From IMG/VR virus record IMGVR_UViG_3300022926_001241, positions 1 to 39,298 of that record: a DNA stretch of 39,298 nucleotides, one strand, 5' to 3'. The notes beneath the pieces are model-generated. The model did no database searches and was not told the origin of the DNA. It saw only the letters and a program-made list of their open reading frames with translations. A program made the translations under genes and the position numbers. This DNA comes from a virus. Positions 21,940-37,871 of this stretch are shown here, piece by piece. Within the stretch, counting starts at the first letter, position 1; every line of letters starts with the position of its first letter.

Positions 21940-22254
21940 ATGTCGACTCCAGAACAAATAGTAGATCAAATTAAGGTAGCCACAGACTACCAAAAGAATA
22001 AAAAACAACTTAAAGAAAAAATCTTAACGGATCTTCATGTGACCTATAATGGTGGCTTATTTTTAATAACCACAGATTTAATTAGTTTTCTAGCAACATG
22101 GACTAATGAAGAACTATTCTTAGAAGATGTTTATAACAATCCTATTAAAGTTAAAAGAGAAGAGCTATTAACCAAAGCCAAAGAGTGCTATCAAGCAGTT
22201 ATGAATGAGTGGCATATCGAACATGAAAAACTCAAACGTGTCAGAAAAATCTAA
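21940..22254 (+). CDS. Small conserved-looking phage protein, unknown function
   Basis: 104 residues, first gene after the sigma70 promoter, with AAAGAGA about 12 bp before the ATG. The protein is charged, with a helical N-terminus (about 1-35), a central hydrophobic segment (GGLFLITTDLISFLATW, about 39-55, too polar around it to be a clear membrane helix) and a Lys/Glu-rich helical C-terminus. I recognise no domain. Its end overlaps the start of the next gene, so the two are probably translationally coupled. Small proteins of this kind occur between the fibre and accessory genes of marine myophages. Confidence 0.6.
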   Translation: MSTPEQIVDQIKVATDYQKNKKQLKEKILTDLHVTYNGGLFLITTDLISFLATWTNEELFLEDVYNNPIKVKREELLTKAKECYQAVMNEWHIEHEKLKRVRKI

Positions 22255-23005
22255 AGGCGTATTAATATTTGCTAAAAACACAGAAACAATAGATTACGTT
22301 GCTATTGCCCGTCGTGCTGAACAATTAATTAATCATTACCTAAATTTACCAGTAACTATAGTGGAACCTACTGTAGAATCTACTACTAATGTTAGATACA
22401 ATATTGATTCTAACAAATTTGAACAATGGAACAACAGTGGTAGATATCAAGCATATGAGTTATCACCATATGATCAAACAATATTGTTAGATTCAGACTA
22501 TCTAGTAATGGATGATAATTTATTAAAAATACTTGAAGTTACAGATGATTATAAAATTGCTGGCAGTAATGACTATATCAATCAGCCAACGTCTAACAGT
22601 ATTGGAAAATACAGTTTAGAAAGTTTATGGGCAACTGTTATTGTTTTTAATAAAACACCAAAGAGCAAAATGTTATTTGATCTCGTTAAGCGTATAGAAA
22701 AATATTATGCATACTATTCTAAACTATATAACTTTCCTCGCGGTAACTATAGAAATGATTATGCTTTCACTATTGCTGACAATATGTTAAATGGATATAT
22801 ACAAGACAGCAGTAACTATATTCCTTGGGCTATTAAAACTGTTAACCAACAGGTTAATAATATAGTTCTACGAGATAATCAATTGATAATTAAAACAAAA
22901 GATCAAGGCTATGTAATTCCAAAACAAAATCTACATATAATCAGTAAAGAGTTTTTATTGAGCGACCAGTGTGAGCAATTAATCAAGGAAGCCACTAATG
23001 CGTGA
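22223..23005 (+). CDS. GT-A-like putative glycosyltransferase
   Basis: About 260 residues. Candidate starts are ATG 22205, ATG 22223 (used here) and GTG 22238; all overlap the preceding gene and none has a strong ribosome site. The fold cue is an N-terminal beta-alpha start (GVLIFAKNTETIDYVAIARR, about 12-31) and, at about 80-98, LSPYDQTILLDSDYLVMDD. This contains a D90-S-D92 motif, the usual metal/nucleotide-sugar site of GT-A glycosyltransferases. No signal or membrane segment is seen. It is paralogous to the next gene (GFLTFAQNTTDVDY aligns with its N-terminus). Donor and acceptor are unknown; the clustering with further sugar-type genes supports glycan synthesis. Confidence 0.6.
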   Translation: MKNSNVSEKSKGVLIFAKNTETIDYVAIARRAEQLINHYLNLPVTIVEPTVESTTNVRYNIDSNKFEQWNNSGRYQAYELSPYDQTILLDSDYLVMDDNLLKILEVTDDYKIAGSNDYINQPTSNSIGKYSLESLWATVIVFNKTPKSKMLFDLVKRIEKYYAYYSKLYNFPRGNYRNDYAFTIADNMLNGYIQDSSNYIPWAIKTVNQQVNNIVLRDNQLIIKTKDQGYVIPKQNLHIISKEFLLSDQCEQLIKEATNA

Positions 23006-23804
23006 ATTTAAAAGTCAATTTGGGTTTTTAACCTTTGCTCAGAATACTACAGATGTTGATTATCTAAATTTAGCCTACGAACAGGCAAAAAATATTAAAC
23101 AAACACAGAAGTCAAATGAGTATGCTGTCGTAGTAGACTCATCTACAGCAAAGTTAGTTACAGAAGAACATAGGCAAGTATTTGATCATGTTATAGAATT
23201 AACTATTGATTATGCTAATAATGAAGATTGGAAATTAAGTAATGAATGGCAAGCATTTTGGCTTACACCATTTAAAGAAACAATTAAACTAGAAAGTGAT
23301 CTATTGTTTACTGGTGATATCAGTCATTGGTTACCTGCTTTAAGATTAAAAGAAATCTGCCTAAGTTACCATTGCCGTGATCATCACAACAACATAGTTG
23401 AAGATAGTGCTTATAGAAATTTATTTAAGATTAATGATTTACCAGATGTGTATAATGGAATGATGTATTTTAGATTTAGTCAAACTGCTACAGACTTTTT
23501 TAAGACTGCCCGAGACATTTACCAAAACTGGGATCAAGTTAAACAACAACTAAAAAATTACGATAAACGACCAACCACTGATGTAGTATATGCTATAACT
23601 GCTAAAATTATTGGAGAAGAAAATTGTATAATACCAACTTTAGATTTTTTCAATTTTGTTCATATGAAACCACAAATACAAGGATGGAATGAGGATCAAC
23701 CGTGGCGGGATCATGTATTAGTAGAACATGATAATAATATGATACGTATCAATAATTTAAATCAATATCAACCAGTACACTATTATGACAAAACCTTTAT
23801 CTGA
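22998..23804 (+). CDS. GT-A-like protein, paralogue of the preceding gene
   Basis: 268 residues, starting 8 bp inside the previous gene. GFLTFAQNTTDVDYLNLAYE (about 9-28) and the WQAFWLTPFKETIKLESDLL segment (about 84-103) align with the equivalent parts of the upstream paralogue. The first Asp of the DxD-type site is replaced, giving E99-S-D101. The substitution may keep metal binding or mark an altered or lost activity. A further segment NGMMYFRFSQTATDFF (about 154-169) is where related families hold acceptor-side residues. Cytosolic, with no targeting signal. Role inferred as glycosyltransferase or a non-catalytic partner. Confidence 0.55.
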   Translation: MREFKSQFGFLTFAQNTTDVDYLNLAYEQAKNIKQTQKSNEYAVVVDSSTAKLVTEEHRQVFDHVIELTIDYANNEDWKLSNEWQAFWLTPFKETIKLESDLLFTGDISHWLPALRLKEICLSYHCRDHHNNIVEDSAYRNLFKINDLPDVYNGMMYFRFSQTATDFFKTARDIYQNWDQVKQQLKNYDKRPTTDVVYAITAKIIGEENCIIPTLDFFNFVHMKPQIQGWNEDQPWRDHVLVEHDNNMIRINNLNQYQPVHYYDKTFI

Positions 23805-24159
23805 AACAGACATATCCTTATGTAAAGCCTGGGAAATGGTTAAACCAATCAATGTGGTTGAAGAATATCGTGCTTACTACAATGAACAGGGCAAAGTACA
23901 GTTCCTAGCCGCTAATACATTTCCTGAAGGAGACAACTGGATTAACATAACCAGAGAGTTTTATGTTGCTCAGAAATTTAATTTCTCGTGGGTCATTGAC
24001 GGTAAATTAGTTGAAAAGTTACCAACAAATAAACATTATTTTAGTTTGACTCAAGGTATAAAAGATGTTAAAATAGTAAAGAATCATGCTGGAATAGTCA
24101 TTGATGACAATGAAGAATATCCAGATGTGGATTACTATGGAATTGAAAAACATATCTAG
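23785..24159 (+). CDS. Hypothetical protein between glycosyltransferase-like genes
   Basis: 124 residues, starting 20 bp inside the upstream gene and overlapping the downstream one. The sequence is mixed alpha/beta and acidic towards the end (DDNEEYPDVDYYG). No cysteine cluster, nucleotide-binding or membrane motif can be seen, and I do not recognise the family. Its position between putative glycosyltransferases, with overlapping ends, suggests co-translation and perhaps a partner role in the same pathway; that is inference from context only. Confidence 0.5.
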   Translation: MTKPLSETDISLCKAWEMVKPINVVEEYRAYYNEQGKVQFLAANTFPEGDNWINITREFYVAQKFNFSWVIDGKLVEKLPTNKHYFSLTQGIKDVKIVKNHAGIVIDDNEEYPDVDYYGIEKHI

Positions 24160-24964
24160 AATAATGTGTGTTGGTCCTAGTAGGATCAATGAAACTATGG
24201 TTACTTTAAGTTTTGACAGTAACCTAATCCCACATATAGACAAGACATATATTTTTAGTCCTTATTCACAAGAAACATTTGATAATCTATTTGAGCAATT
24301 TAGTATAGACTCTAGTAAGTTTACAATTTTAGATGATCAATATTTTGAACAGTATTATAATTTAACATTCTGGAGAGATAAAAATTGGTTTAAGCAACAG
24401 GCATTTAAGTTATGTGCGTTAGATCATTTTGATAGTGATGTATTTTTAATACAAGATTCAGATATTGTTTTGCTTGAACCATTTGAATACATTAAAAACG
24501 ATAAACTTAACTTTAAAGCAGAAGATGTATGGAACCCATTTCAGGAAATTTATGCTCAATGGGTAGAAAAAATAATTGGCATGAATAGAAAAGAAAATGT
24601 TAGTTTAGTCAATGAACTTATGCCTTATTTTAAAAGTGATTGGGTCGAACTTAAACAGCACATAGAAGATAAGCATCAAACAGATTTTTTGAGTGCTATT
24701 GCTAATTTAAAAACCTTTCATGAGGATCAATGGTTTAGTGAGTACGAACTATTGGGTATATATAAAACACATTTAGACAACAACTGGTTTTGTACTAAAT
24801 GGCAAAGTCAACCTCCAATCGATAGTTGGGAAGACTTTTATAATGTTGATTGGAAACAACACCATAGTATTAAGTTTCATACTAAGCCATTGAAATTTAT
24901 GACAGTACAAGAAGCATTAGATATAACAAAACATATTAAAGAAAACTATGTCAGAAATAATTGA
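24137..24964 (+). CDS. DUF6492-like putative glycosyltransferase
   Basis: About 275 residues. The frame extends up to 24101, but starts at ATG 24137 (used) or ATG 24164, just after the upstream stop, are more plausible. The central segment CALDHFDSDVFLIQDSDIVL followed by LEPF (about 93-116) has a D107-S-D109 motif at the end of a beta strand. The downstream LKTFHEDQWFSEYELLGIY segment is typical of acceptor-side loops in DUF6492-type and other GT-A-like proteins. Residues near the C-terminus (SIKFHTKPLKFM) may be another conserved patch. Cytosolic, with no targeting signal. The donor sugar and acceptor cannot be read from sequence. It overlaps the next gene by 17 bp. Confidence 0.55.
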   Translation: MELKNISRIMCVGPSRINETMVTLSFDSNLIPHIDKTYIFSPYSQETFDNLFEQFSIDSSKFTILDDQYFEQYYNLTFWRDKNWFKQQAFKLCALDHFDSDVFLIQDSDIVLLEPFEYIKNDKLNFKAEDVWNPFQEIYAQWVEKIIGMNRKENVSLVNELMPYFKSDWVELKQHIEDKHQTDFLSAIANLKTFHEDQWFSEYELLGIYKTHLDNNWFCTKWQSQPPIDSWEDFYNVDWKQHHSIKFHTKPLKFMTVQEALDITKHIKENYVRNN

Positions 24965-25841
24965 TATCGCAGATTTAGATTGTGTTTATCTTAGTTATGA
25001 TGAACCACAAAAAGAAGAGTTTTGGATTAAGATTCAAAACATGGTACCTTGGGCTGTTCGTGTAGACGGAGTTAAAGGATCAGATGCCGCACATAAAGCC
25101 GCGGCTGATGCCAGTACTACAGATAGATTTATTCTAATAGATGGCGACAATTTACCTGATCCAAACTTTTTTAATCTACAGTTAGAGTTAGATAATGACA
25201 ATAAAGACAGTGTGTTCCGTTGGAGGGCTCGGAATCATATTAACGGTTTAATGTATGGCAATGGTGGACTTAGTTCTTGGACCAAAGAATTCATATTTAA
25301 TATGAAGACGCATGAGAACAGTGATGGCGACGATGAAACTAATGTAGAGTTTTGTTTTGATCCTTTATATTGGCCAATGAATGATTGCTATTCAACAACA
25401 TATCCCAACCAAACTCCTTTCCAAGCATGGCGAGCAGGATTTAGAGAAGGTGTTAAGATGTGTCTGGATCGTGGTACTAAACCTACAGTAGAAGAGTTTA
25501 AAGAAAAAGCACACGGACGTAATTTAGATCATTTAACGATTTGGCATAACGTAGGCCGTGATGTTGAGAATGGTATATGGGCCATGGCTGGTGCTAGACA
25601 AGGCACAGTAATGACTATGCTAAGTAACTGGGATCATCGAGAAGTACAATGGTTTGATAACTTAGCAAATCTATGGAGTGAGTTACAATCTGACGATGTA
25701 GAAACAATAGCACGTGACAATGGTAAAGAACTTAGTAGGTTGGATCTAGCAGTAGTAGAACTAACAGCAGAACAAAGTAAATTTTTTAAGCACCATTACA
25801 AAAGTCAATTTACCAATACTGGTATTATGGACAGAGAATAA
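24948..25841 (+). CDS. GT-A-like marine-phage protein (putative glycosyltransferase)
   Basis: 297 residues. The N-terminal half reads like a family-2-type sugar transferase: DCVYLSYDEP (about 11-20), RVDGVKGSDAAHKAAADAS (about 38-56) and RFILIDGDNLPDP with a D65-G-D67 motif. HINGLMYGNGGLSSWTKEFI (about 96-115) follows. Similar proteins are common in marine myophages. The same blocks reappear, altered, in the last gene of the window (VKGRVAAYQAAAK; NPINGLEYGHMAMIAYN), so the two are paralogues. The C-terminal part (about 170-297) is helical and less recognisable. It closes the first half of the island; 51 bp separate it from the radical-SAM cluster. Confidence 0.6.
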   Translation: MSEIIDIADLDCVYLSYDEPQKEEFWIKIQNMVPWAVRVDGVKGSDAAHKAAADASTTDRFILIDGDNLPDPNFFNLQLELDNDNKDSVFRWRARNHINGLMYGNGGLSSWTKEFIFNMKTHENSDGDDETNVEFCFDPLYWPMNDCYSTTYPNQTPFQAWRAGFREGVKMCLDRGTKPTVEEFKEKAHGRNLDHLTIWHNVGRDVENGIWAMAGARQGTVMTMLSNWDHREVQWFDNLANLWSELQSDDVETIARDNGKELSRLDLAVVELTAEQSKFFKHHYKSQFTNTGIMDRE

Positions 25842-25885: not shown

Positions 25886-25893
25886 GATAAATA
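25886..25893 (+). promoter_or_regulatory. Late promoter box GATAAATA before the radical-SAM cluster
   Basis: The third exact GATAAATA, again between genes. It touches the first possible ATG of the radical-SAM operon (25893). T4-type late initiation would start at about 25899, leaving the ATG at 25905 nearly leaderless. It suggests that the five radical-SAM genes are transcribed late, with virion genes. Confidence 0.5.
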
Positions 25894-27305
25894 TGGAAAA
25901 ATCAATGACTAAGAGTACATTTCTTTCTGACGCTGAAAGAATTAAAGAAAAATTAGATTCTGTTAGCCCTAGTTTATGTTTAGCTAAATGGCAACAGGTA
26001 AGTTTACATTTACCAACAGGATTAAATAACTCTTGTTATCATCCTCCTTTACACGAAATAGATGCTAAGCCTTTAGAGTTCCATCCTAGTCGTTTACACA
26101 ATACAGAACATAAAAAACAACAACGTAAAAAAATGTTAGAAGGTGCTCGTCCTAAAGAGTGTAACTACTGCTGGCACATGGAAGATTTAGGAGAAATGTC
26201 AGACAGACATTATCGTTCTGGTGAGCCCTGGGCCGCTGAGCATTTTGATAACATTGTTAATAATCCATGGGATCAAGATGTAACACCTAGTTATGTAGAA
26301 GTTAATTTTAGTCATGCTTGTAACCTAGCATGTAGTTATTGTTCACCACAGTTCTCAACTGAATGGGGCAAAGACATAGAACGTTGGGGTGCTTATCCTA
26401 CTTCAACACCACACAACGATCCTGAACATTTTAAAGGAAGACGCAAGCCAATTCCAGTCAGAGAAGAAAATCCCTATGTAGAAGCATTTTGGAAATGGTG
26501 GCCTGAACTATACGGATCACTTAAACATTTTAGAATGACTGGCGGTGAGCCATTAATGGATAAGAATACACATAGGGTATTTGATTATATTTTAGCAAGT
26601 CCTAAAAGTGATTTACATGTAGACGTAACATCAAACTTTTCTGTAGAACCTAAATTATTTGAAGACTATCTAGGCAAAGTAAAACAACTTTGTAAGGGTG
26701 AACGTATTGAACACTTTATGCAGTATGTGAGTATAGACACTGGTAATCCAGACCATGCTCAATATATAAGACATGGTCTTATGCCTCAACGATTTCATAG
26801 TTACCTACATCGGTACCTGGTAGAAGTTCCAGAAAGGAATAGTTTAACATTTATTATTACAATGAATAATTTAAGTTTGTTAGGTCTACAACGGCAATTA
26901 GAAGAAATTTTAGAATTGCGTAGAATGTATAGTTCAACATACCAACGTGTCTGGTTTGATACTCCTGTGTTAAGAACACCAAGTTGGCAGAGTTTACAAA
27001 TACTACCAGCAAGTTATAGTCGTATCTTAGAGAACGTAATTAAATGGATGGAGTTAAACAAATTAGAAGAAGGTAGTGATAAGTTTGACGGATTTAAAGA
27101 TTATGAGATACAAAGACTACGAAGAGATTTCGAATGGATGAAGAAAGGTAAAAAGTTAAGTAAAAAATATTTGTATGAGCAACGAGCTGATTTTTATAGA
27201 TTCTTTAATGAGTATGATAAAAGACGTAAAACAGACTTTCTAGCAACCTTCCCTCAGATGAAAGAGTTCTGGCAAGAGTGTAAGTGGCATGCCGAAAATT
27301 CATAA
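25893..27305 (+). CDS. N-terminal-twitch radical-SAM enzyme 1
   Basis: 470 residues; an in-frame ATG at 25905 with GGA 7 bp upstream is an alternative start. The radical-SAM cluster motif CNLACSYC (C143, C147, C150; CX3CX2C) is followed by RMTGGEPLM, the SAM-binding GGE segment. Before the core is a four-Cys module (C29, C48, C90, C93: SLCLAKW, NSCYHPP, ECNYCW), the layout of the N-terminal 'twitch' radical-SAM family, which probably binds an auxiliary 4Fe-4S cluster. A strand NSLTFIITMNNLSLL (about 314-328) lies in the TIM-barrel half. Such enzymes cut SAM reductively to make a 5'-deoxyadenosyl radical; the substrate is unknown. It is the first of five paralogues and overlaps the next by 17 bp. 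Closest in type to enzyme 2 (single Cys, then H-P). Confidence 0.85.
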   Translation: MEKSMTKSTFLSDAERIKEKLDSVSPSLCLAKWQQVSLHLPTGLNNSCYHPPLHEIDAKPLEFHPSRLHNTEHKKQQRKKMLEGARPKECNYCWHMEDLGEMSDRHYRSGEPWAAEHFDNIVNNPWDQDVTPSYVEVNFSHACNLACSYCSPQFSTEWGKDIERWGAYPTSTPHNDPEHFKGRRKPIPVREENPYVEAFWKWWPELYGSLKHFRMTGGEPLMDKNTHRVFDYILASPKSDLHVDVTSNFSVEPKLFEDYLGKVKQLCKGERIEHFMQYVSIDTGNPDHAQYIRHGLMPQRFHSYLHRYLVEVPERNSLTFIITMNNLSLLGLQRQLEEILELRRMYSSTYQRVWFDTPVLRTPSWQSLQILPASYSRILENVIKWMELNKLEEGSDKFDGFKDYEIQRLRRDFEWMKKGKKLSKKYLYEQRADFYRFFNEYDKRRKTDFLATFPQMKEFWQECKWHAENS

Positions 27306-28635
27306 CGAAACAGATCTAGAATATAAACGCAGAGTAATAGATATCAAGTCTGAATCATTCTGTGGTGCTAAATGGTACAATGCTACCATATGGCTAGGTT
27401 CAGGACAAACTACTAGTTGTCACCATCCTTTACCACACCAGGTAACAGTAGAAGAAGTTAAAGCAAATCCCAAAGCATTACACAATACCTATAGAAAAAA
27501 ACAAGAACGCCAAATGATGAAAGATGGCGAAAGACCAGCAGGTTGTGAATACTGTTGGAAAATTGAAGACATGGGTACTGATAAGATATCAGACCGTGTA
27601 GATAAAACAAGGATATACACAGATGAAGAATTGGATGAAGCATACAATGCCCCTTGGACACAAGATATTGACCTTAGAACTTTGGAAATTGCTTTTGATA
27701 GGACTTGCCAGCTGGCTTGTAGTTATTGCAATCCCGCTTTTAGCAGTGCTTGGGTTCGCGATATTAAGCAACACGGTAGTTATACCAACTTGGTTAGTGA
27801 CGGTCGCAACCACTTTACTCATACTCACGATAGCAGTCAACTTTATACTATTCATCAGCATAATCCTTATGTTGAAGCCTTCTTCAAGTGGTGGGAATCA
27901 GACCTACACAAAACACTTAGAGAACTTAGAATAACAGGTGGTGAGCCATTGATGTCAGGATACACTTGGAAATTATTAGATTGGTTTAAAGAGAACAAAG
28001 GTAAAAGTCAAACACGTCTTGCTATTAATAGTAATCTTGCTATGGAACAAGATAAAATAGATCGTTTACTAGAAGCCGCTGGTGACGTTGAATTAGACTT
28101 ATATACAAGTTGTGAAGCAACATACGATCATGCTGAATATATTAGAGATGGTTTAGATTATCAGCAATGGCTACAGAATGTTGAATATCTATTAGAAAGT
28201 AAAAAGTTACGCGGACTACATGTGATGTGTACAGTCAACAGTTTATGTTTGATCTCACTACCTTACTTGTTAAAACAAATAGTTAAATGGAAAAAACAGT
28301 ACGGACAAGATGCTGTTAACTTCACTCTAAACATTCTACGCTTTCCTAGTTTCCAATCACCTTTAGTATTAGACAAAGAGTTTAGGATAGCTCAGGCCAA
28401 CAGACTAGGAATATTTAAAACAAACTATGGCGAATGGCTACATGAGTTTGAACATAATCATATAGATAGATTAATTGACTATTTACAATTAGTAGATAAA
28501 CCACATTCAGATGCGTTTGAAGAACAGAAACTATTAAGCGATTTTAAAAACTTTTACGAACAATACGATGAACGCAGAAACAAAAACTTTACAGAAACGT
28601 TTCCTGAACTAGAGGAATGGTACAATGGCTTATAA
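27289..28635 (+). CDS. N-terminal-twitch radical-SAM enzyme 2
   Basis: 448 residues, starting 17 bp inside enzyme 1. The core motif CQLACSYC supplies C140, C144 and C147; RITGGEPLM follows. The N-terminal module has C25, C44, C86 and C89 (SFCGAKW, TSCHHPLP, GCEYCW), matching enzyme 1 in spacing and in the single Cys-His-His type, unlike the Cys-Cys type of enzymes 3-5. Similarity along the whole length, including NPYVEAFFKWW before the GGE segment (NPYVEAFWKWW in enzyme 1), makes 1 and 2 a clear duplicate pair. Cytosolic, expected to be oxygen-sensitive and to need a host reductant. The substrate is unknown; two diverged copies could act on successive positions of one substrate or form a heteromer. 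Confidence 0.85.
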   Translation: MPKIHNETDLEYKRRVIDIKSESFCGAKWYNATIWLGSGQTTSCHHPLPHQVTVEEVKANPKALHNTYRKKQERQMMKDGERPAGCEYCWKIEDMGTDKISDRVDKTRIYTDEELDEAYNAPWTQDIDLRTLEIAFDRTCQLACSYCNPAFSSAWVRDIKQHGSYTNLVSDGRNHFTHTHDSSQLYTIHQHNPYVEAFFKWWESDLHKTLRELRITGGEPLMSGYTWKLLDWFKENKGKSQTRLAINSNLAMEQDKIDRLLEAAGDVELDLYTSCEATYDHAEYIRDGLDYQQWLQNVEYLLESKKLRGLHVMCTVNSLCLISLPYLLKQIVKWKKQYGQDAVNFTLNILRFPSFQSPLVLDKEFRIAQANRLGIFKTNYGEWLHEFEHNHIDRLIDYLQLVDKPHSDAFEEQKLLSDFKNFYEQYDERRNKNFTETFPELEEWYNGL

Positions 28636-29899
28636 CTACAATTCATCAGAACCAGTAAAAATAAGTTTAGATCAATTAACTGACCGTGAAAAGTTTTTGT
28701 TAACAGAATCTAAAACGTTTTGTATGTATCCTTGGATACACTTACATAGTTATCCAACAGGTGATGCTTATCCTTGCTGTCATGCCGAAATGCCTGAGAA
28801 ACTAGGTAACTGTCAACAGCAGTCAATGAAAGAAATATGGTCTAATGATAAGACTATTAAGTTACGTGATGACATGCTGAATGAAAGAGAAAATCCTGCG
28901 TGTACTAGATGTTATGAACAGGAGAAGTCAGGTTTCTTTTCGGGACGTAAGTCAGCAAACAAACATCATGGCCATCATATTAAAAAAGGTGTTGACTTAG
29001 ATCCTCCGTTTGAAATGACATATTGGGATATACGTTTTAGTAACTTATGTAACTTATCATGTCGTAGTTGCGGACATATCTTTAGTAGTTCCTGGTATCA
29101 AGATCAAGTTAAACTTGCTGGCGAAGGGTGGGGCAAATCAAATAAGCCTTTGTTTTGGGCAGGCAGGCATGAAACAGATATGATCGAACAGTTAATGGAA
29201 CACCTAGACTATGTAGAGCAAATATATTTTGCAGGTGGTGAACCATTGATGATGGATGAACACTATGTTATTTTAGAAGAATTAGAAAAGCGTAAACGCT
29301 TTGATGTAAGATTAATCTACAATACAAACTTTACTAAAACAAAACTAAAAGATCGTTATGTGTTTGACTATTGGCGTAAGTTTGATTCAGTAGCAGTAGG
29401 TGCTAGTTTAGATGCTATGGGACCACGTGCTGAATATATTAGAGCAGGCACAGACTGGGCAGAGGTAGAAAAGAATAGACAGTTGATGTTAGAACAATGT
29501 CCTAATGTTGACTTTTATATTAGTCCTACATTGAGTATACAAAATGCACTACATTTGCCTGACTTTCATAGAGAGTGGGTAGAACGTGGATTTATTAAAC
29601 CTCAGGACTTAAATGTTAATATCTTGCAAGACCCTGCGTGGTTACGTATTGATATTGCACCTGAACAATATAAAGAAAAGATACGTGCTAAGTATGAACA
29701 ACACTTAGAATGGCTACGACCTTTAGACAAGTTAAATAGAGCAACAGTGGGATTTGAATCTGCACTAAACTTTTTAGAAACAGACAACACTAAGTTACTG
29801 CCTAAGTTTTGGGAACGAATGACAGAGTTAGACAAGATTAGAAACGAAAACATATCAGAAGTAATACCGGAGTTAGATGAAATACGAATCAATAATTAA
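28625..29899 (+). CDS. N-terminal-twitch radical-SAM enzyme 3
   Basis: 424 residues, starting 11 bp inside enzyme 2. Core motif CNLSCRSCG (C142, C146, C149) and YFAGGEPLMM. The N-terminal cluster module has C33, the pair C51-C52 and C93/C96 (TFCMYPW, YPCCHAE, ACTRCYEQE). The FCxxPW and CC signature resembles SPASM/twitch cluster sites but lies before the radical-SAM core, as in the N-twitch family. It belongs with enzymes 4 and 5 rather than 1 and 2. The C-terminus RNENISEVIPELDEI resembles the endings of its neighbours. No transmembrane or RiPP-recognition domain can be seen. The substrate is unknown. It overlaps the next gene by 23 bp. Confidence 0.85.
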   Translation: MAYNYNSSEPVKISLDQLTDREKFLLTESKTFCMYPWIHLHSYPTGDAYPCCHAEMPEKLGNCQQQSMKEIWSNDKTIKLRDDMLNERENPACTRCYEQEKSGFFSGRKSANKHHGHHIKKGVDLDPPFEMTYWDIRFSNLCNLSCRSCGHIFSSSWYQDQVKLAGEGWGKSNKPLFWAGRHETDMIEQLMEHLDYVEQIYFAGGEPLMMDEHYVILEELEKRKRFDVRLIYNTNFTKTKLKDRYVFDYWRKFDSVAVGASLDAMGPRAEYIRAGTDWAEVEKNRQLMLEQCPNVDFYISPTLSIQNALHLPDFHREWVERGFIKPQDLNVNILQDPAWLRIDIAPEQYKEKIRAKYEQHLEWLRPLDKLNRATVGFESALNFLETDNTKLLPKFWERMTELDKIRNENISEVIPELDEIRINN

Positions 29900-31466
29900 A
29901 CTGTTGTCTATACAGTATACGGTGCACTCAGTTGACGGAACAAAAGATTTAGTCAAACAATTACGCACAATACAAAAAGAAAAATACGAAGATAATGAAC
30001 GTATCGTTATTAGTATGCCTGACATTTCAACTTTAAATGATCTACAGAACATTATTAATAGTTTAGATATATCAAATTTCTTTGTTATGATTGTTACAGA
30101 AGACAAAAATGTTGTTAATGAAATTGAACGTGTTACACGTGAGTTTAGCTACGACCCTATTCCTTTTACAGCAGTGTTAGTTAACGGAGATCAATATAAG
30201 ATAATTAATCAAGCACAGCAGGAAACAGATCACTCAACATTAGAATCTAGAATTAAGAGTTTAAATTTACCCAATGAAAACTTTTGTGTGCTACCTTGGG
30301 TAGCATTAGAAATACAACCAAGTGGTGAACATGCTGTTTGTTGTCTAGCAGAAGAAACAATCAAAGATGAAAAGGGTGATATTTTAACAGTAACAAAAAA
30401 CTCTTTAGATGATGTGTTAGATGCTCATTCAATGAAGCAACTTAGACGTGACTTTTTAGCAAATAAAAAACCAAAGACCTGTGCTAAATGTTGGAGAGTA
30501 GAGGACAGTGGCGGAGTCAGTAAACGATTAAACACACTAGACAGATTAAAACACTTAGGTATTGCGAACCAAACCTGGACGGAAGATCGTAAAGAATTAT
30601 TAATGTATGATCTTAAAGTAGGTAACATCTGTAACTTAAAATGTCGTATATGTGGCAGTTATTCATCCAGTCAAATTGCAACAGAAGAGTTACCAAAAGA
30701 AAATAAAAAATCTAGTTATGCTTACAAAACAATAGAATTAGGAAGATGGCCAAGAGAACAACTCCACTTCTGGGAGAAGTTAATCGAACATAGTCATGAA
30801 ATACGTTATCTAGAATTTACAGGTGGTGAACCTTTTTTAATTAAAGAACACTTTGAGTTTTTAGAAAAGTTAGTTGACCTGGGTATTGCAGGCAATGTTG
30901 AAATACATTACAACACTAACGGCACACAATACCCAGAGAACGCTATTAATATATGGAAACATTTTAAGTTAGTTGAAATAGCATTTAGTATTGATGATGT
31001 TAAAGAACGTTTTGAGTACCAACGTAAGAATGCCAAGTGGGACGAGGTTACGGAAAATGTTAATAAGTTTAAACAATTAAAAAAGGAATTAGGTAATATT
31101 CATTTACAGGTATGTTCAACTATTAATGTGTTTAATGTAATGTATCTTGAAGGACTAGCAAACTGGATTGACGAGCAAAAGTTTGATAATGTATACTGGA
31201 ATATGTTACACGAAGAAGAGTCGGTTAGTATACGAAGTCTACACCCATTGGCTAAAATACGTGCTATTGCAAAGCTATCATTAGCAAAGGTAAGCAGTCA
31301 ACATAAGAAAGAGTTTGAAAATGCTATTAATTTTATGGAGCAAGGTGCTAGTAGCAATGGAGAAACATTGTTGAAAAAAATTAAGCAAAAAGATGAAATA
31401 AGAAATGAAAACCTTTGGGATCATCATCCTGAACTAGCAGACGCAATAGGCTATGAACGAACCTAA
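29877..31466 (+). CDS. N-terminal-twitch radical-SAM enzyme 4 with extra N-terminal domain
   Basis: 529 residues, the longest of the five. Residues 1-125 are an added alpha/beta-looking domain (strands such as RIVISMP at 42-48 and FFVMIVTED at 68-76, with intervening helices) absent from the paralogues. Its function is unknown; it could bind the substrate. After it come C137, C155-C156 and C202/C205 (NFCVLPW, AVCCLAEE, TCAKCW), the N-twitch cluster module. The core is CNLKCRICG (C252, C256, C259), then LEFTGGEPFL. The C-terminus (RNENLWDHHPELADAI) resembles enzyme 3. It starts 23 bp inside enzyme 3 and overlaps enzyme 5 by 14 bp. The added domain makes it the best candidate for giving the cluster its substrate specificity. 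Confidence 0.85.
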   Translation: MKYESIIKLLSIQYTVHSVDGTKDLVKQLRTIQKEKYEDNERIVISMPDISTLNDLQNIINSLDISNFFVMIVTEDKNVVNEIERVTREFSYDPIPFTAVLVNGDQYKIINQAQQETDHSTLESRIKSLNLPNENFCVLPWVALEIQPSGEHAVCCLAEETIKDEKGDILTVTKNSLDDVLDAHSMKQLRRDFLANKKPKTCAKCWRVEDSGGVSKRLNTLDRLKHLGIANQTWTEDRKELLMYDLKVGNICNLKCRICGSYSSSQIATEELPKENKKSSYAYKTIELGRWPREQLHFWEKLIEHSHEIRYLEFTGGEPFLIKEHFEFLEKLVDLGIAGNVEIHYNTNGTQYPENAINIWKHFKLVEIAFSIDDVKERFEYQRKNAKWDEVTENVNKFKQLKKELGNIHLQVCSTINVFNVMYLEGLANWIDEQKFDNVYWNMLHEEESVSIRSLHPLAKIRAIAKLSLAKVSSQHKKEFENAINFMEQGASSNGETLLKKIKQKDEIRNENLWDHHPELADAIGYERT

Positions 31467-32763
31467 GAACAGACCTGCTACCTTGTGTATGGCTCCTTGG
31501 ACACATACATATCTAAGTCCACAAACAGAAAGACGTATGTGCTGTGCTAGTCGTGAAGAAGCACAAAACTTTGAACAATACATAGATACCAAAGCCGGAA
31601 CAGGCAAGTACATTCCTATTACCTTAGAAGAACACTGGAATTCAGACCATATGAAGTCAGTGCGTAAGCGTATGATGGCAGGCGAAACCTTGCCAGAGTG
31701 TGACGTGTGTAATAGTAAGTTATTAAACACAGACGTTTACCGTAGTTATTTTGACCACTTGTTTTCCAGTAAATACTATGCAAAGATATGGGAAACCACA
31801 GACGAGGATGGGTTTACAACAATGCAACCTGTGTCGTGGGACTACCGTTTTAGTAACCTTTGTAACTTCAAGTGCCGTACTTGTGGAGATATGTTGTCCA
31901 GTGCTTGGGAATCAGAACAAAGACAACATAATATGATTAACTGGCATAATCCTAAAAACAATTGGATGAAGCCAGAAATCAAAAAGGATATCGAAAAGTT
32001 TCAAGACACGCAAATTGAGCAAGAGTTTGCTCAAGCAGTAGAAGAACATAGAGTTGAAGAAGTCTACTGGGTAGGTGGGGAACCTTTAATGTACGAACAA
32101 CACTGGACGTATATGAATCGAATTATCCAACTCGGTGATGGAGCAAATGTATATGCAAGGTACAATACAAACCTCAGTCGTGTGGCTCATCGTGGCATTA
32201 GCCTCTTCAATGATATTTTACCTAATCTACGTGATTGGCAAATCTGTGCGTCAATTGATGGAACAGAAGAGATTGGAGAGTACATTAGAACAGGTCTCAA
32301 ATATAATCAATGGGTTGAAAATTATGATCAAGCAGTTGCGACAGCAAATACGAGCCGCCAAGTTCGTGTCGATTTTACTGCGACATTACCAGGACTCTTC
32401 GAAGTCAAACGAATCCAAGACTTCGCAGAAAGCCGCGGGACGGAAGTCCTCGCAAAAGTAATTTTTAGTTTTACGCCGGACATTATTCTAAGTCCACTAG
32501 CACTTCCTAAAGAATTATTACATCCATGGGTAGACGAAATTGTAAATACTCTACCCAATGGTGCTATGAAAGATGTAATGTTACAACTTAAAAATAGACC
32601 TACGTTTGCTGAACAATGGCCAGATCAATATGAACAAGGTCTACGTAAAGGCAAACAAAGAATATTACAACTAGAACAAATTAGAAACGATAAACTTACA
32701 CTGCGTGATATACTATCAAATAGACAAGCAGTATTAGAATGGTGGGATTCAATTGGAAGTTAA
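31453..32763 (+). CDS. N-terminal-twitch radical-SAM enzyme 5
   Basis: 436 residues, overlapping enzyme 4 by 14 bp. N-terminal module C12, C30-C31 and C83/C86 (TLCMAPW, RMCCASRE, ECDVCN). Core CNFKCRTCG (C137, C141, C144) and VGGEPLM. Its type is the CC form of enzymes 3 and 4. DNA from about 32120 to 32480 stands out by codon choice: six CTC leucine codons and several GCG, CGC and GTC codons in a gene otherwise using TTA/CTA, GCT/GCA and CGT/AGA. This points to a recombined segment from another phage lineage. The frame is intact across the patch, so the enzyme is probably functional. The next gene starts 11 bp inside this one. Confidence 0.85.
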   Translation: MNEPKNRPATLCMAPWTHTYLSPQTERRMCCASREEAQNFEQYIDTKAGTGKYIPITLEEHWNSDHMKSVRKRMMAGETLPECDVCNSKLLNTDVYRSYFDHLFSSKYYAKIWETTDEDGFTTMQPVSWDYRFSNLCNFKCRTCGDMLSSAWESEQRQHNMINWHNPKNNWMKPEIKKDIEKFQDTQIEQEFAQAVEEHRVEEVYWVGGEPLMYEQHWTYMNRIIQLGDGANVYARYNTNLSRVAHRGISLFNDILPNLRDWQICASIDGTEEIGEYIRTGLKYNQWVENYDQAVATANTSRQVRVDFTATLPGLFEVKRIQDFAESRGTEVLAKVIFSFTPDIILSPLALPKELLHPWVDEIVNTLPNGAMKDVMLQLKNRPTFAEQWPDQYEQGLRKGKQRILQLEQIRNDKLTLRDILSNRQAVLEWWDSIGS

Positions 32764-33895
32764 AGTTACTCTACGCAATCCGTTAAACAAGCAAGATACC
32801 TTAGACTATTACATAGTTCCTAATGATACACAGTTAGCACAGGACTGGGTATCTAGTCTAGAAGAAATAGTCAAAGACAATCTACATTTAGAAAAAAATT
32901 ATTGCTTTCTAGGATTTCCAAAAACACAAAGAACACTTGATTTGTTGTGTGATGAACTTAATAAACATGTTATGACAATTAACATGTTTAACTACTCAGG
33001 TCTTTGGCAAAGTAAGGGGCTAGAACCTTACATAATTTTCACACATTACACTCCAGATCAGGTAAGATGGCCTGCAGAGTACGGTGTTAAGAACGGATAC
33101 GTATACGAGGAATCAAGAGTAAACACAAGGGTCGGCCTCTTTATTAAAGATGAAGTAATGAATGAGTTACATAACCACTTTGAAGTACTTCAAGGCACAG
33201 TAGAACACCCAAGTCCGTATTATGATTTAGCTAACGACGAAACAAAGTATGCAATAAGACAGTTAAACAATTTATGTCACGAGATAGAAAGTTTAATATT
33301 AAGTCAGAGACAGGATTATCTAGAACCTGAGTGGGTTAGACCTAGTCAAATTACAACATTCTTTAACGTAAATAGAAAGCATTTAACAGACGAACACAGA
33401 CAAGGCTTTTTAACAAATGGTTATGATCGTAAGTTTGGGCATGTCTACATGCACTGGACGCAAATAGGTAAAACACTGTTTGAAGTATTTCGTGATGAAG
33501 GTGCGCCAGATCTAGATGAAGCAACCTGTGAAGCAATAACACACCTACAATATTATTCGGGAGAGTTTGACGTAGAGTGGGCAAAGGATGTTGTAAGAAA
33601 TAATAATTGTCCTTGGCATGATGAAGAACAATTACTATTTGAAAACTGGTTATTAAAAAACAGCTTTGACCCTCGAGATACAAAATTAAGTTTAGGGTAT
33701 TTGCATCTAGGACAGATTGATTTAGAACGTAGTTTCGGTACACAAGATCAACAGGCTATTTGGAACAGGCTAAGTAATTATCTAGACATATATAAAATTG
33801 AAGTTAACGGATACACAGCAACATATGACTATTGTTGGAGTGACGAAGATTTTAAACAACAACAAATGAAGAGATTAGGTTATGAAGTGGATTAA
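32753..33895 (+). CDS. Unknown 380-residue protein after the radical-SAM genes
   Basis: The frame starts at a TTG (32753) that overlaps the previous stop, with GGTGGGA just upstream as a possible ribosome site; no ATG lies near. The sequence is soluble and acidic, rich in Trp, Tyr and His. Segments that look conserved are ESLILSQRQDYLEPEW (about 180-195), VYMHWTQIGKTLFEVFRDEG (about 232-251) and LGYLHLGQIDLERSFG (about 321-336). No cysteine cluster, DxD or nucleotide-binding loop is visible. I do not recognise the family. Its place inside the same overlapping operon makes a partner, substrate carrier or second-step enzyme for the radical-SAM proteins possible; that is inference from position only. 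Confidence 0.6.
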   Translation: MEVKVTLRNPLNKQDTLDYYIVPNDTQLAQDWVSSLEEIVKDNLHLEKNYCFLGFPKTQRTLDLLCDELNKHVMTINMFNYSGLWQSKGLEPYIIFTHYTPDQVRWPAEYGVKNGYVYEESRVNTRVGLFIKDEVMNELHNHFEVLQGTVEHPSPYYDLANDETKYAIRQLNNLCHEIESLILSQRQDYLEPEWVRPSQITTFFNVNRKHLTDEHRQGFLTNGYDRKFGHVYMHWTQIGKTLFEVFRDEGAPDLDEATCEAITHLQYYSGEFDVEWAKDVVRNNNCPWHDEEQLLFENWLLKNSFDPRDTKLSLGYLHLGQIDLERSFGTQDQQAIWNRLSNYLDIYKIEVNGYTATYDYCWSDEDFKQQQMKRLGYEVD

Positions 33896-33983
33896 AAATT
33901 TAATAAACAAGATTAAGTTAGAATTACGTTATCGTAAAAAACTGAAAGAGCTAAGGAAGAAGGATCCTTTCATCTACAAATGA
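33882..33983 (+). CDS. 33-residue cationic micro-protein
   Basis: A short frame with ATG at 33882, overlapping the end of the previous gene by 14 bp, and a TGA sharing ATGA with the next start (33980). The peptide begins MKWIKNLINKIKLELRYRKK and ends KLKELRKKDPFIYK. It is a very basic amphipathic helix with a fixed-looking DPFIY tail. The neat overlaps at both ends argue that it is a real gene. Short proteins with a similar Lys/Arg helix and DPFIYK-like ending are, as far as I recall, seen in marine phages and bacteria. The function is unknown. It has no Cys, so a classic sactipeptide role is unlikely, though other radical-SAM chemistry cannot be excluded. Confidence 0.55.
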   Translation: MKWIKNLINKIKLELRYRKKLKELRKKDPFIYK

Positions 33984-34162
33984 GTGAAGAAATCAAAAGT
34001 CCATGTATAGGTGTTTGCAGTCAAAATCCAGTAACTAAACAGTGCTTTGGTTGCCAACGTACACCAGAAGAAATAGAAAAGTGGTGGGATTATACAGAGG
34101 AAGAAAAACTTGCATTATTAGAAGAATTAGAAAAGAGATCAGATGAGTTATTTGGGGATTAG
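33980..34162 (+). CDS. DUF1289 Fe-S-type small protein
   Basis: 60 residues. It has the DUF1289 signature: C9-x3-C13 (SPCIGVC), C22-x2-C25 (QCFGCQRT) and the EEIEKWWDYTEEEKLALLEE tail. Four cysteines can bind a metal or Fe-S centre. DUF1289 proteins are small bacterial proteins of unclear function. Here the gene shares ATGA with the micro-ORF before it and overlaps the carbamoyltransferase by 20 bp, so it is expressed with the radical-SAM and carbamoyltransferase genes. A role in cluster supply or electron transfer to the radical-SAM enzymes is possible but only inferred. Confidence 0.75.
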   Translation: MSEEIKSPCIGVCSQNPVTKQCFGCQRTPEEIEKWWDYTEEEKLALLEELEKRSDELFGD

Positions 34163-35627
34163 TTCAGGCTTTCATGATGCTGGTATAACTGTTATTGATG
34201 ATAACGGCGATATTGTATTAGCAAGTCACAGTGAACGTTATTCAAAAAAGAAAAATGATCACTTGTTAAGTGGAGAGCAATTCCGTGAATTTGACTACGG
34301 ACAACTAAAAAAGATTAGTTACTATGAACGTCCTTGGTTAAAACAACTACGTCAAATAAGAACAGGACAAGGTATAGAGTGGGATAAACTCACTGTACGA
34401 CAAATACTCGAACAGCAAATTCCTAAAAACATTTTTAATAAAATAAAATCAGTTCCTGTGCAAACAAACAATCATCATTTATCACATGCGGCCGCTGGTT
34501 TTCAAACTAGCCCTTATAACGATGCTACTGTTGTAGTTATTGATGCTATAGGCGAGTTTGATACTATTAGTATATGGTCAGCAGAATATGATAGTAAAGG
34601 TTATGCCAAATACAAAAAGTTATGGACACAGAAGTATCCTCATTCAATGGGCTTGTTTTATTCAGCGATGACTAAACGTGCAGGACTTAGACCTTTAGAT
34701 GAAGAATATATTTTAATGGGTATGGCCGCTTATAGTTTACCTAAGTTTGATATGATCAATGACTTTGTAGAAGACCGTGCTGAAATTAAATTCAAAGAGA
34801 ACCTGCACCTAGGTTGTGATGACTATGATCCTAAAATGTCTGACTATCAAGTTGCCGCTTCAGCACAAAGCGTACTAGAAACTTTACTACATGAAGTTAT
34901 GGCACGTGCTAGAAAAATAGGACGTAGTAACAATTTAGTTTATATGGGCGGTGTTGCTCTTAACTGTCTAGCCAATGAACACATAGGAGCATACTTTAAA
35001 AATATTTGGATTATGCCTAACCCTGGCGACTGTGGATCTAGTCTAGGAGCCGCGGCTTTGGCTTATGGTCGTAAGGTTAATTGGGTGCATCCTTACCTAG
35101 GCACAAACATCAAGGGCAAGTATCCTGTTAATGCTGTATTAGACGAATTGTTTAATCGTAAGATAGTAGGAGTAGCAAGTGGTCGTGCAGAGTTTGGCCC
35201 AAGAGCTCTAGGCAACAGATCATTACTAGCAGACCCAAGAGGTCCAGAAATAAAAGATCAAGTAAATGAAATTAAACGTAGACAAAAGTTTAGACCTTTT
35301 GCACCTATCATCTTAGAAGAGTTTGTTGATGAGTATTTTGAAATGCCTACAGGATTTCCAACAAGTCCTTATATGCAGACAGTGGCTCGTTGTAAAAAGC
35401 CAGGAGAGTTTCCTGCTATTATACACAAAGATGGAACCAGTCGTGTACAAACAGTTCCTAAAGATAGTAACTCAGGTGTAAGACAACTGTTAGAAAAATG
35501 GTTTACCTTAACAGGTTGTCCTATGTTACTTAATACAAGTTTGAATATCAGAGGTGAGCCGATGGTTAATGATCGTAGTGATGCTGATCGGTTTGAAAAA
35601 CTCTACGGAGTTAAGGTCTGTAGTTAG
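34143..35627 (+). CDS. NodU/CmcH-family O-carbamoyltransferase
   Basis: 494 residues. Enzymes of this family activate carbamoyl phosphate with ATP to carbamoyl-adenylate, then move the carbamoyl group to a hydroxyl of a sugar or antibiotic. Visible marks are the N-terminal LGISSGFHDAGITVI (H11), NNHHLSHAAAGF with H111, H112 and H115 (metal/nucleotide site of the ASKHA-like domain), EYILMGMAAY (about 189-198), MGGVALNC (268-275) and NPGDCGSSLGAA (293-304). In the C-terminal YrdC-like part come GRAEFGPRALGNRSLLADPR (347-366) and LLNTSLNIRGEPMV (462-475). It is somewhat shorter than typical members, mainly at the C-terminal end, but all motifs are present. The acceptor is probably a glycan made by the neighbouring glycosyltransferases. 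It converges with the next gene, the stops overlapping by 4 bp. Confidence 0.88.
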   Translation: MSYLGISSGFHDAGITVIDDNGDIVLASHSERYSKKKNDHLLSGEQFREFDYGQLKKISYYERPWLKQLRQIRTGQGIEWDKLTVRQILEQQIPKNIFNKIKSVPVQTNNHHLSHAAAGFQTSPYNDATVVVIDAIGEFDTISIWSAEYDSKGYAKYKKLWTQKYPHSMGLFYSAMTKRAGLRPLDEEYILMGMAAYSLPKFDMINDFVEDRAEIKFKENLHLGCDDYDPKMSDYQVAASAQSVLETLLHEVMARARKIGRSNNLVYMGGVALNCLANEHIGAYFKNIWIMPNPGDCGSSLGAAALAYGRKVNWVHPYLGTNIKGKYPVNAVLDELFNRKIVGVASGRAEFGPRALGNRSLLADPRGPEIKDQVNEIKRRQKFRPFAPIILEEFVDEYFEMPTGFPTSPYMQTVARCKKPGEFPAIIHKDGTSRVQTVPKDSNSGVRQLLEKWFTLTGCPMLLNTSLNIRGEPMVNDRSDADRFEKLYGVKVCS

Positions 35628-36790
35628 TTACGGATAGTGTCAATTAACGTACCAAGTCTGTGACTGAGGTCGCTTTCTAATACAGATCTATTGTGTAATA
35701 AAGTTGGTTCAGCCTCAAGATACATATCGTGTAATTTATCTAAAGGCATACGAGCAAGTTCCTCACTCAACTTCATAACAGCCTGAAAGCGTTCGTTAGT
35801 ATCTTCAATCTCATCATAACTTTCGTCCCAGATATGACCAAACGTAGCATAACCTAGTTCACGTAGATGTTTTAAATGTTGATGTTCTGCTACACAGATA
35901 AATGGCTGACAGTGTAGGATAGGTTTAAGAGTTTTTTCAGTAATAAACTGACCTTCACTAGAGTCAACATCAATAAATGTTTCTAGCACAATATTAAAGT
36001 AACTGTCCTCATAAAGTTCTATAGGTGTTACTGCATAGTTGTTTCTTTCATCACTGCTAAGTTCGTCAACAAAGAATGGTCCTGCTTGAATAAAGTCGTT
36101 AACTCTAGGCTGTTGTTCTGCTAACCACTCATTGTATAATGGTAAACCATCATAGTCGTCCTGTTCGCCTAGTTGTTCTTGACAATAACTAAAATAACCG
36201 TTTTTATGTAGCCCTTTTGCCCATAGATTACTCATAAAAACTTTACGCCAGAGCTTGTCAATACGCACAAGAGCAGTAAAATGCTTACTACGACGCTTAA
36301 AATGCGTCTTAGGCACCGTTGTAAAGTCTACAGAACGTCTATACATATACTCTAACTCTGGCCAATAATGTGTATATTTGTAGTCTGTGGCCGCACTGTT
36401 ACCACTAACAACTGCCACATTGTGATAGTCATATTGCTTACACAGTTCGGTGATTCTACGACTTATCATTTTTGGATTGTCTGCTTCGTGATAAAAGAAA
36501 ACTATTTTGAATCCTTTTTTAAATGCTTTAGGATTGATCAATTTAAAATAATCAAAAGTAAAATCAAACCAACCAATGTTCATAGGATACCAAGCACCGT
36601 TGGGTGCATTAGGTGTGTGATAAATGTCTATGTCTATAGAACTTTCTTTAGCATAATAAAAAATTCTAGGATAGTCTAAGTAAGGAGAGGATGTATCCCA
36701 GCCGCCTTCACGATAGTGTTCTCTGGTGATGCCATTTGGTATTGGCCTGCCAGTGCCTTCTTCAAAGTTATCAATTGCTAAAGTAATCAT
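35624..36790 (-). CDS. ITEKT-motif putative glycosyltransferase 1
   Basis: 388 residues on the - strand, second gene of a two-gene unit. The C-terminal block (about 282-340) reads FITEKTLKPILHCQPFI, then LRELGYATFGHIWDESYDEI. A TEK-type segment followed by PFI and DESYD blocks recurs in phage and giant-virus proteins annotated as glycosyltransferases; the TEK motif recalls GT10 fucosyltransferases, so a GT-B-like fold is plausible. The N-terminal half (about 1-230) has alternating beta strands (KIVFFYHEA, VAVVSG) as in a Rossmann-like domain. No targeting sequence. Its first 20 bases overlap the end of the upstream paralogue. The activity is not proven by sequence. Confidence 0.55.
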   Translation of the reverse strand: MITLAIDNFEEGTGRPIPNGITREHYREGGWDTSSPYLDYPRIFYYAKESSIDIDIYHTPNAPNGAWYPMNIGWFDFTFDYFKLINPKAFKKGFKIVFFYHEADNPKMISRRITELCKQYDYHNVAVVSGNSAATDYKYTHYWPELEYMYRRSVDFTTVPKTHFKRRSKHFTALVRIDKLWRKVFMSNLWAKGLHKNGYFSYCQEQLGEQDDYDGLPLYNEWLAEQQPRVNDFIQAGPFFVDELSSDERNNYAVTPIELYEDSYFNIVLETFIDVDSSEGQFITEKTLKPILHCQPFICVAEHQHLKHLRELGYATFGHIWDESYDEIEDTNERFQAVMKLSEELARMPLDKLHDMYLEAEPTLLHNRSVLESDLSHRLGTLIDTIRN

Positions 36791-37871
36791 TGATTTGTCC
36801 TAACATATTTTCAAGCTCTTGCCACAACAGTTTTTCAAAGTTACCTTTGTAAAAATGCTCATAGTTGTATTTTATAATAGGTAAACAGTCTAGCCATAAC
36901 TTATGTTTTTCGGCCGAGGTATAACTGTCTAACTGTTTCATTAGTTTACCAATGGCAGTATACCGCTCAAAGTCATCTTCTATAAAGTCATAACTTTCGT
37001 CCCATATACTGCCAAAAGTCATAAAGCCGTATTGTTTCAAATATGCTAAACTATAAGCAGGTGCTGTTAGTATAAAAGGCATTTGTAGTGCAATAGGTTT
37101 AAATGTTTTTTCAGTAATATGATGTCGTTTCCCTGTAGCCACAGTTTCAGTTACGTGATAAAATAAACTTTCGCAAGATTCTTTTATCTGTGTTAACTTA
37201 TAACTTGACATCTCCTGTGTTTCTTCGTTACGAAATGTTCTTGGCAAGTCAGCTTCTTTTAATACATGTACAATGTCTGGATAGTTTTTTGACATTGATC
37301 CGGCAATATCTAATATATCTTCGCCTTCTACAGGACATACTTGTGGTGCTGATATGTGATTATGCCATAGATCATTCTTAAGCATGTGATATAACATAGC
37401 CACACGATGTTTGCGTTTACCGCCAATAATGCGATTAGGTGATATAAATGTTTTCTTTATAGTACGATCAGCAGGGGGTGTAATATTAAATGTCCTATTA
37501 AATCCTCGAAACCAATCTAATGCGGCCCACCCGTGAAAAAAATAATAAAATTGCTCCCCACCGAGATATTCTTGAGCCCAATTAGCATTTTCACTATCAC
37601 GCTCACTGGTAACCATAGCAAACTTTTTTGTTCCACAATATTCTTTTATTTTACTAAATGTTGATTTGTGTAAGTTGGGCTGGATAGGTTCTTGATCAAA
37701 TAGATACAAATAATTTCCACGGTTCTCGTTTCCGTTAATATATACTACGATACTATCAGGATCACTAGACCCAAACGGATCATGAACTGCTAGTTCAAAA
37801 TTTCTATTTTTACTATTAGAAGCAAAGTATGGAAAAAACACAGTTTGATAAATTTCGTCTATTCTAATCAT
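36771..37871 (-). CDS. ITEKT-motif putative glycosyltransferase 2
   Basis: 366 residues on the - strand and paralogous to the following - strand gene: HITEKTFKPIALQMPFIL (251-268) and YGFMTFGSIWDESYDFIEDD (281-300) align with its C-terminal block. The N-terminal half includes NYLYLFDQEPIQPN (53-66) and KFAMVTSERDSENANW (83-98), consistent with a nucleotide-sugar-binding Rossmann domain. Its ATG (37869-37871) overlaps the ATG of the divergent + gene by two bases, so its promoter must lie inside that gene; no clear promoter or ribosome site was seen. The pair forms the only - strand unit in the window and looks like an inverted cassette inside the glycan island. Confidence 0.55.
   Translation of the reverse strand: MIRIDEIYQTVFFPYFASNSKNRNFELAVHDPFGSSDPDSIVVYINGNENRGNYLYLFDQEPIQPNLHKSTFSKIKEYCGTKKFAMVTSERDSENANWAQEYLGGEQFYYFFHGWAALDWFRGFNRTFNITPPADRTIKKTFISPNRIIGGKRKHRVAMLYHMLKNDLWHNHISAPQVCPVEGEDILDIAGSMSKNYPDIVHVLKEADLPRTFRNEETQEMSSYKLTQIKESCESLFYHVTETVATGKRHHITEKTFKPIALQMPFILTAPAYSLAYLKQYGFMTFGSIWDESYDFIEDDFERYTAIGKLMKQLDSYTSAEKHKLWLDCLPIIKYNYEHFYKGNFEKLLWQELENMLGQINDYFSN

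Follow-up and report, generated by a model that had tools for sequence, protein, structure and literature searches.

The window, meaning the whole 39,298-base stretch analysed here, is a single contig from the IMG/VR virus records. Five complete open reading frames on its plus strand, RS1 to RS5, overlap one another in succession by 17, 11, 23 and 14 bp and are followed by a sixth cassette gene. These genes and their neighbours are as follows.

19332–20780, plus strand: tail-fibre-like protein, a host-recognition landmark (phrog_19602 tail fiber, Peptidase_G2 domain)
22205–23005, plus strand: conserved upstream gene, possibly GT-A-like (LDSD motif), in 75 related sequences
22998–23804, plus strand: conserved upstream gene, possibly GT-A-like, in 75 related sequences
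24101–24964, plus strand: upstream gene, possibly GT-A-like (sequence motif QDSD)
24948–25841, plus strand: GT-A-fold protein with a DGD motif, probable glycosyltransferase (AlphaFold pLDDT 88; GT-A best, Z 9.4)
25893–27305, plus strand: RS1, N-twitch radical-SAM enzyme of class 1 (NF033640 289.9 bits; orthologue clade of 81 loci, all cysteines kept)
27289–28635, plus strand: RS2, N-twitch radical-SAM class 2, sister of RS1 (NF033640 298 bits; clade of 81 sequences)
28625–29899, plus strand: RS3, N-twitch radical-SAM class 3 (NF033640 391.9 bits; clade of 78)
29877–31466, plus strand: RS4, N-twitch radical-SAM class 4 (NF033640 336.1 bits over residues 134–522; clade of 74)
31453–32763, plus strand: RS5, N-twitch radical-SAM class 5 (NF033640 289.2 bits; clade of 65)
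32753–33895, plus strand: sixth cassette gene adjoining RS5, cyclophilin-like barrel with a helical insertion (fold predicted with AlphaFold and VIA-align)
33980–34162, plus strand: small cysteine-rich DUF1289 protein (PF06945, E 2.4e-16)
34143–35627, plus strand: NodU/NolO-type carbamoyltransferase (PF16861, PF02543, phrog_1601)
35624–36790, minus strand: member of the family commonest as a cassette insert (87 related inserts), possibly a GT-B glycosyltransferase
36771–37871, minus strand: relative of the 35624–36790 gene (same family in alignment)

In a profile search the NCBIfam model NF033640 (N_Twi_rSAM) matched RS1 to RS5 almost end to end with 289–392 bits, all above the curated cut-off of 170 bits, and each of the five proteins contained one CX3CX2C motif, one GGEP segment and four N-terminal twitch cysteines. 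A preliminary description of this DNA had reported five complete N-twitch radical-SAM genes overlapping by 11–23 bp and sharing these three elements, and all of this was borne out. Its division of the genes into two types, the first two versus the last three, also agreed with the twitch motifs and with the tree presented below: the second twitch cysteine occurs as CY in RS1, as CH in RS2 and as CC in RS3 to RS5, and CNxxCRxCG is present in RS3 to RS5 and absent from RS1 and RS2. By sequence criteria RS1 to RS5 are real members of the N_Twi_rSAM family and are predicted to cleave SAM; the name of the model assigns no reaction, and the model neither separates five orthologue classes nor describes an ordered cassette. 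RS4 carries about 125 extra N-terminal residues (window 29877–30270), and regions resembling them precede the N-twitch domain in two related sequences (L257:5130–6707 and L268:5719–7278).

A phylogeny with N-twitch homologues and a survey of gene neighbourhoods in viral contigs, both proposed in the preliminary description, gave consistent results. The scan of viral contigs for cassette relatives confirmed at least 545, of which 80 were taken, and cassette frequency is therefore a lower bound; the contigs compared are uncultured and partly redundant. RS1 to RS5 fell into five separate clades with about one member per locus in a tree of 410 proteins, in which RS1 and RS2 were joined with a support of 1.0 and RS3 and RS4 with 0.79, the latter pair grouping with RS5. 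Mean identity was 57–68% within a class and 19–33% between classes, and RS1 to RS5 themselves share 17–33% identity. Given this low identity between classes and the separate clade of each, recent tandem duplication was ruled out, and RS1 to RS5 are, judging from their divergence, ancient paralogues whose classes long predate these phages. The strict order RS1-RS2-RS3-RS4-RS5 was found in 57 loci, the remainder being mostly truncated by contig ends. All five classes were present in 83 of the 89 loci spanning the GT-A gene to the sixth gene (53/56 in the first set and 30/33 in a set anchored on the sixth gene), counts that are not independent, as 11 contigs are common to both sets by name and some are near-identical. 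Two of the six exceptional loci (L071 and L082) hold genes of the missing class outside the strict clade, and the other four have lost or replaced RS3, the class most often absent or exchanged. The ordered recurrence of the five classes is far beyond chance.

The three radical-SAM cysteines and the four twitch cysteines were kept in all of 379 orthologues, and the median pairwise ω (dN/dS) of the classes was 0.057–0.097, a rough measure obtained by the Nei-Gojobori method for pairs with dS < 2; these values clearly point to purifying selection. The kept cysteines and low ω ruled out decaying copies and, together with the conserved order, indicate that the radical-SAM genes were kept by selection. 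The earlier view that the genes are intact and selectively maintained thus stands; its wording that they arose by a duplication after which they might have decayed does not, given the age of the classes.

The sixth gene followed RS5 directly in 59/59 loci of the first set and in 77 of the 80 loci of the second, one ORF intervening in the other three. Its product was modelled by AlphaFold with a pLDDT of 89.7. In a VIA-align comparison against the PDB cyclophilins made up nearly all of the top rows (Z up to 9.8 over 131 residues), after which Z fell to about 7. A Foldseek search of the same model against the PDB gave no significant match, and VIA-align is the one method from which the cyclophilin-like reading comes. 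The matching predicted viral structures were unnamed proteins of uncultured Caudovirales and one protein of Agrobacterium phage Atu_ph07, and these suggested no function. The conserved residues of the protein include His, Glu and Arg. We read it as a probable cyclophilin-like barrel into which a large helical segment is inserted; such a fold alone gives no function and would point to peptides as much as to sugars. The preliminary description mentioned neither this conserved gene nor the conserved neighbours, and the bacterial counterparts described below were also absent from it.

The gene at 24948–25841 sits immediately 5' of RS1 or within a few genes of it, and relatives were found in 81 sequences with a median identity of 67%. 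Its modelled product aligned to B4GALNT1 with Z 9.4 and carries the DGD motif at residues 65–67; it is a probable glycosyltransferase for which sugar transfer is predicted, the GT-A fold also being common to nucleotidyltransferases. Long members of this family (606–968 aa) with no PHROG match were seen downstream of the cassette at L217:16392–18212 and L208:10100–13006. Neither of the products of 22205–23005 and 22998–23804 had a Pfam or PHROG match, and the 24101–24964 gene was absent from most relatives. A NodU-type carbamoyltransferase lies 3' of the cassette in most loci. On the 5' side there are a baseplate wedge gene, a gene for a 4400-aa virion structural protein and tail-fibre-like genes, which places the cassette in a T4-like host recognition cluster.

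Genes inserted between those of the cassette vary among relatives. The commonest belong to the family of the 35624–36790 gene, for which no meaningful Pfam or PDB match was found, and lie mostly between RS1 and RS2. Others are sugar-nucleotide epimerases or dehydratases (L029 and L050), an APS-kinase-like protein (L018) and, elsewhere in the scanned set, a DegT aminotransferase, hexapeptide transferases and a Stf0 sulphotransferase. A SAM synthetase, MetK, is encoded inside the cassette of L031 and L058 (431 bits against a cut-off of 309 for the L031 copy), and a nucleosidase lies between RS4 and RS5 in L024, L025, L031 and L058, which scored below the curated cut-offs and is assigned to the MTA/SAH nucleosidase (MTAN) superfamily, not to an exact substrate. 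MTAN also removes 5'-deoxyadenosine, which arises as a by-product when radical-SAM enzymes turn over and is inhibitory. IscU and two A-type Fe-S carriers were each found in 7/17 long relatives, namely in seven of the eight records of at least 225 kb, and a search of the long relatives for a cysteine desulphurase gave weak matches only. Because relatives carry genes for SAM synthesis, a nucleosidase, IscU and A-type carriers, the chemistry is probably real, and these genes argue for working radical enzymes.

Each long viral record contained 6–21 N-twitch matches, and the additional genes of the same phages adjoin core genes (terminase, gp46, helicase-like) away from sugar clusters. The record of L056 (346,856 bases) held 21 N_Twi_rSAM matches together with IscU and two A-type carriers. 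Such extra genes stood at matching places beside terminase-like and gp46-like genes in L257, L258, L262 and L268.

The best matches in a bacterial genome collection, L087 to L090 and probably L091, appear to be phage contigs that were placed in metagenome-assembled genomes by binning; L087 to L090 are read in this way because the same phage neighbours are present. RS5 precedes RS4 in L087, L088 and L090. Cellular relatives of the N-twitch genes occurred in Bacteroidota, Elusimicrobia, Bdellovibrionota and others. A Bacteriovoracaceae contig (L096:4040–16036), which looks chromosomal, carries eight N-twitch genes that fall in the RS1, RS2, RS3, RS4 and RS5 clades and adjoin obgE- and rpmA-like genes; no sugar genes were found beside this cluster. 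Five Bdellovibrionota genomes had 9–20 N-twitch matches each, not all over the cut-off, and two of the five had homologues of the sixth gene. One member of this group (L270) has a GT-A-family gene followed by an N-twitch gene and two more radical-SAM genes, and another (L271:16386–18293, minus strand) encodes a 635-aa fusion of a radical-SAM domain (about residues 12–183) with a GT-A-family domain (400–628). Elsewhere among bacteria the N-twitch genes have neighbours of mixed kinds.

Among isolated phages no close relatives were found: the matches were confined to Vibrio phages, with an identity of about 23%, and a fragment from a marine single cell reached 32% in that search. The isolated Vibrio phages K566 and K567 resemble the present one in having N-twitch genes (six matches in K566). 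Homologues of the sixth gene and of the GT-A gene were not found in K566, and a tblastn search with these two genes against isolated phages gave no match.

Phages with several radical-SAM genes were noted in 2017 and 2020 (PMC5332604, PMC7029224, PMC7678222). In pelagimyophages, which are T4-like, the host recognition cluster occupies the tail-fibre region and contains numerous glycosyltransferases besides radical-SAM cassettes (PMC7029224). It was described as hypervariable, with the radical-SAM cassettes as additions, whereas five radical-SAM classes and the sixth gene form a conserved backbone here. Another report describes a T4-like virus, TARA_ERS488813_N000010, with 12 radical-SAM genes and an A-type Fe-S carrier, and other Fe-S-rich ocean viruses that carry IscU (PMC5332604); its passages on these viruses give counts and the Fe-S context without orthologue classes, gene order, SAM supply or a GT-A link. 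The Lake Baikal population VP_139, T4-like and with 35% GC, has radical-SAM, methionine adenosyltransferase and MTA/SAH nucleosidase genes, which were interpreted as PQQ and SAM-cycle auxiliary genes (PMC7678222); we liken it to the present phage group by its description. For one similar population Methylophilaceae have been proposed as hosts. A prior description of the five classes as an ordered unit was not found in the open-access literature, subscription papers and preprints lying outside the search. Given that the same literature yielded no phage process described as using this gene set, an undescribed radical pathway, as the preliminary description had proposed, is the natural reading, and the MetK, nucleosidase and Fe-S genes support its premise of working enzymes. 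That the steps form a single sequential pathway would be a further supposition.

The earlier proposal had left a sugar, a lipid or a peptide as the substrate. We favour a sugar because of the gene context, in which GT-A, epimerase, aminotransferase and carbamoyltransferase genes are found, and propose a conserved glycan-tailoring unit in the tail-fibre region of a T4-like phage, in which the five N-twitch enzymes act on sugar; we put this at close to an even chance. In its favour are the ordered cassette, the intact cysteines and low ω, the flanking GT-A and NodU genes, the sugar-enzyme inserts, the SAM-supply, nucleosidase and Fe-S genes of relatives, the GT-A/radical-SAM links of Bdellovibrionota and the company of glycosyltransferases and radical-SAM cassettes in pelagimyophage host-recognition clusters (PMC7029224). 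The five enzymes, presumably expressed late, would cleave SAM, and the 5'-deoxyadenosyl radical would act on sugar residues, each enzyme taking a separate position or carrying out a separate step, which might be an epimerisation, a dehydration, a deoxygenation or the making of a C-C bond. The glycan would be assembled by the GT-A protein and variable extra transferases and carbamoylated by NodU, with the cyclophilin-like protein as an obligate partner assisting RS5. The product would probably decorate the tail fibres, or else the host surface so as to exclude other phages. The twitch region of the profile weakly matched that of BtrN (E 0.0009), one of the twitch-domain radical-SAM enzymes that act on sugars or cyclitols; the stretch concerned lies C-terminally in BtrN and N-terminally in the RS proteins. 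Several findings speak against a glycan: the GT-A fold shared with nucleotidyltransferases, the cyclophilin-like fold of the sixth protein, the Bacteriovoracaceae cluster without adjoining sugar genes, the extra N-twitch genes beside core genes, the mixed neighbourhoods in other bacteria and the loss or replacement of RS3 in four loci. The wider claim is that five different N-twitch enzymes, joined by a cyclophilin-like protein and an enzyme of the GT-A type, form an undescribed pathway that builds or remodels a single surface glycan, or else a modification of the virion, and that Bdellovibrionota and a very common group of T4-like water phages, some of which bring SAM and Fe-S supply, have related sets; it is tentative and in our judgement somewhat short of an even chance.

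The main rival is that the enzymes modify structural proteins such as tail fibres after translation, introducing epimerised residues or thioether or C-C crosslinks, with the cyclophilin-like protein as a peptide-binding helper. Peptides or proteins are the substrates of many twitch/SPASM relatives whose function is known, and the weak profile similarity to peptide maturases, the fold of the sixth protein and the adjoining tail-fibre genes would fit. However, within the window the overlapping RS genes leave no gap and no precursor-like small gene between them, the recognisable inserts are largely sugar enzymes, and the auxiliary cysteines, four of them conserved, are N-terminal, unlike those of the SPASM maturases, whose C-terminal SPASM domain with two auxiliary clusters was not found in RS1 to RS5. 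We consider protein modification unlikely, though a serious candidate. It is improbable that there is no joint pathway at all and that N-twitch genes are multiplying accessory genes with small separate roles, linked to their neighbours only by descent. In favour of this, long records have 6–21 copies each, many of them dispersed among core genes, and the RS3 distances are weakly correlated with those of the other classes, but five distinct classes stay together and ordered across diverged contigs despite turnover of the genes between them, and RS5 and the sixth gene are practically never apart.

It is quite improbable that the enzymes serve takeover or the evasion of defences by making a small molecule that diffuses or by modifying nucleotides or DNA. 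NodU-type carbamoyltransferases do have substrates other than cell-surface glycans, and the radical-SAM core is weakly similar to that of viperins, but the tail-fibre location and the sugar-enzyme inserts argue otherwise, and viperin-like antiviral enzymes were ruled out by scores of at most 39 bits with NF038283, far below its cut-off of 180. A boost to a host pathway, with the cassette as a set of auxiliary metabolic genes for the SAM cycle or PQQ on the model put forward for VP_139, would account for the comparable gene set described there (PMC7678222) and for the MetK and nucleosidase genes in relatives. In an NCBIfam search none of RS1 to RS5 matched PqqE at E 0.001, and 17 long relatives had no match to a PQQ alcohol dehydrogenase, which ruled out PQQ biosynthesis. 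Given that the SAM genes of L031 and L058 are located inside the radical-SAM cassette, service to the cassette enzymes rather than to the host explains them better, and a host-pathway boost is highly improbable.

Radical-SAM enzymes are costly and oxygen-sensitive, yet five distinct ones are held in a fixed order and single records carry up to 21 members of the family. As the phages keep such costly enzymes, some with genes for Fe-S assembly and SAM synthesis, the modification would be important enough to pay for during infection. Each of two scans gave more than 500 relatives as a minimum, and the system is thus abundant in nature. The T4-like water phages that carry it, uncultured and forming a large group, apparently have in the cassette a dedicated, previously undescribed chemical assembly line, whose role is probably to decorate a surface sugar. 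Its product, once known, would reveal new sugar or protein chemistry and part of phage-host recognition, and would assign roles to an enzyme family that is large, as yet unnamed and present also in Bdellovibrionota.

The usual T4 late-promoter octamer, TATAAATA, was absent from window positions 1–39298, with 7 expected by chance, which leaves late expression a supposition. The heptamer ATAAATA was enriched before the tail-fibre-like genes of relatives (40/66 versus about 4 expected).
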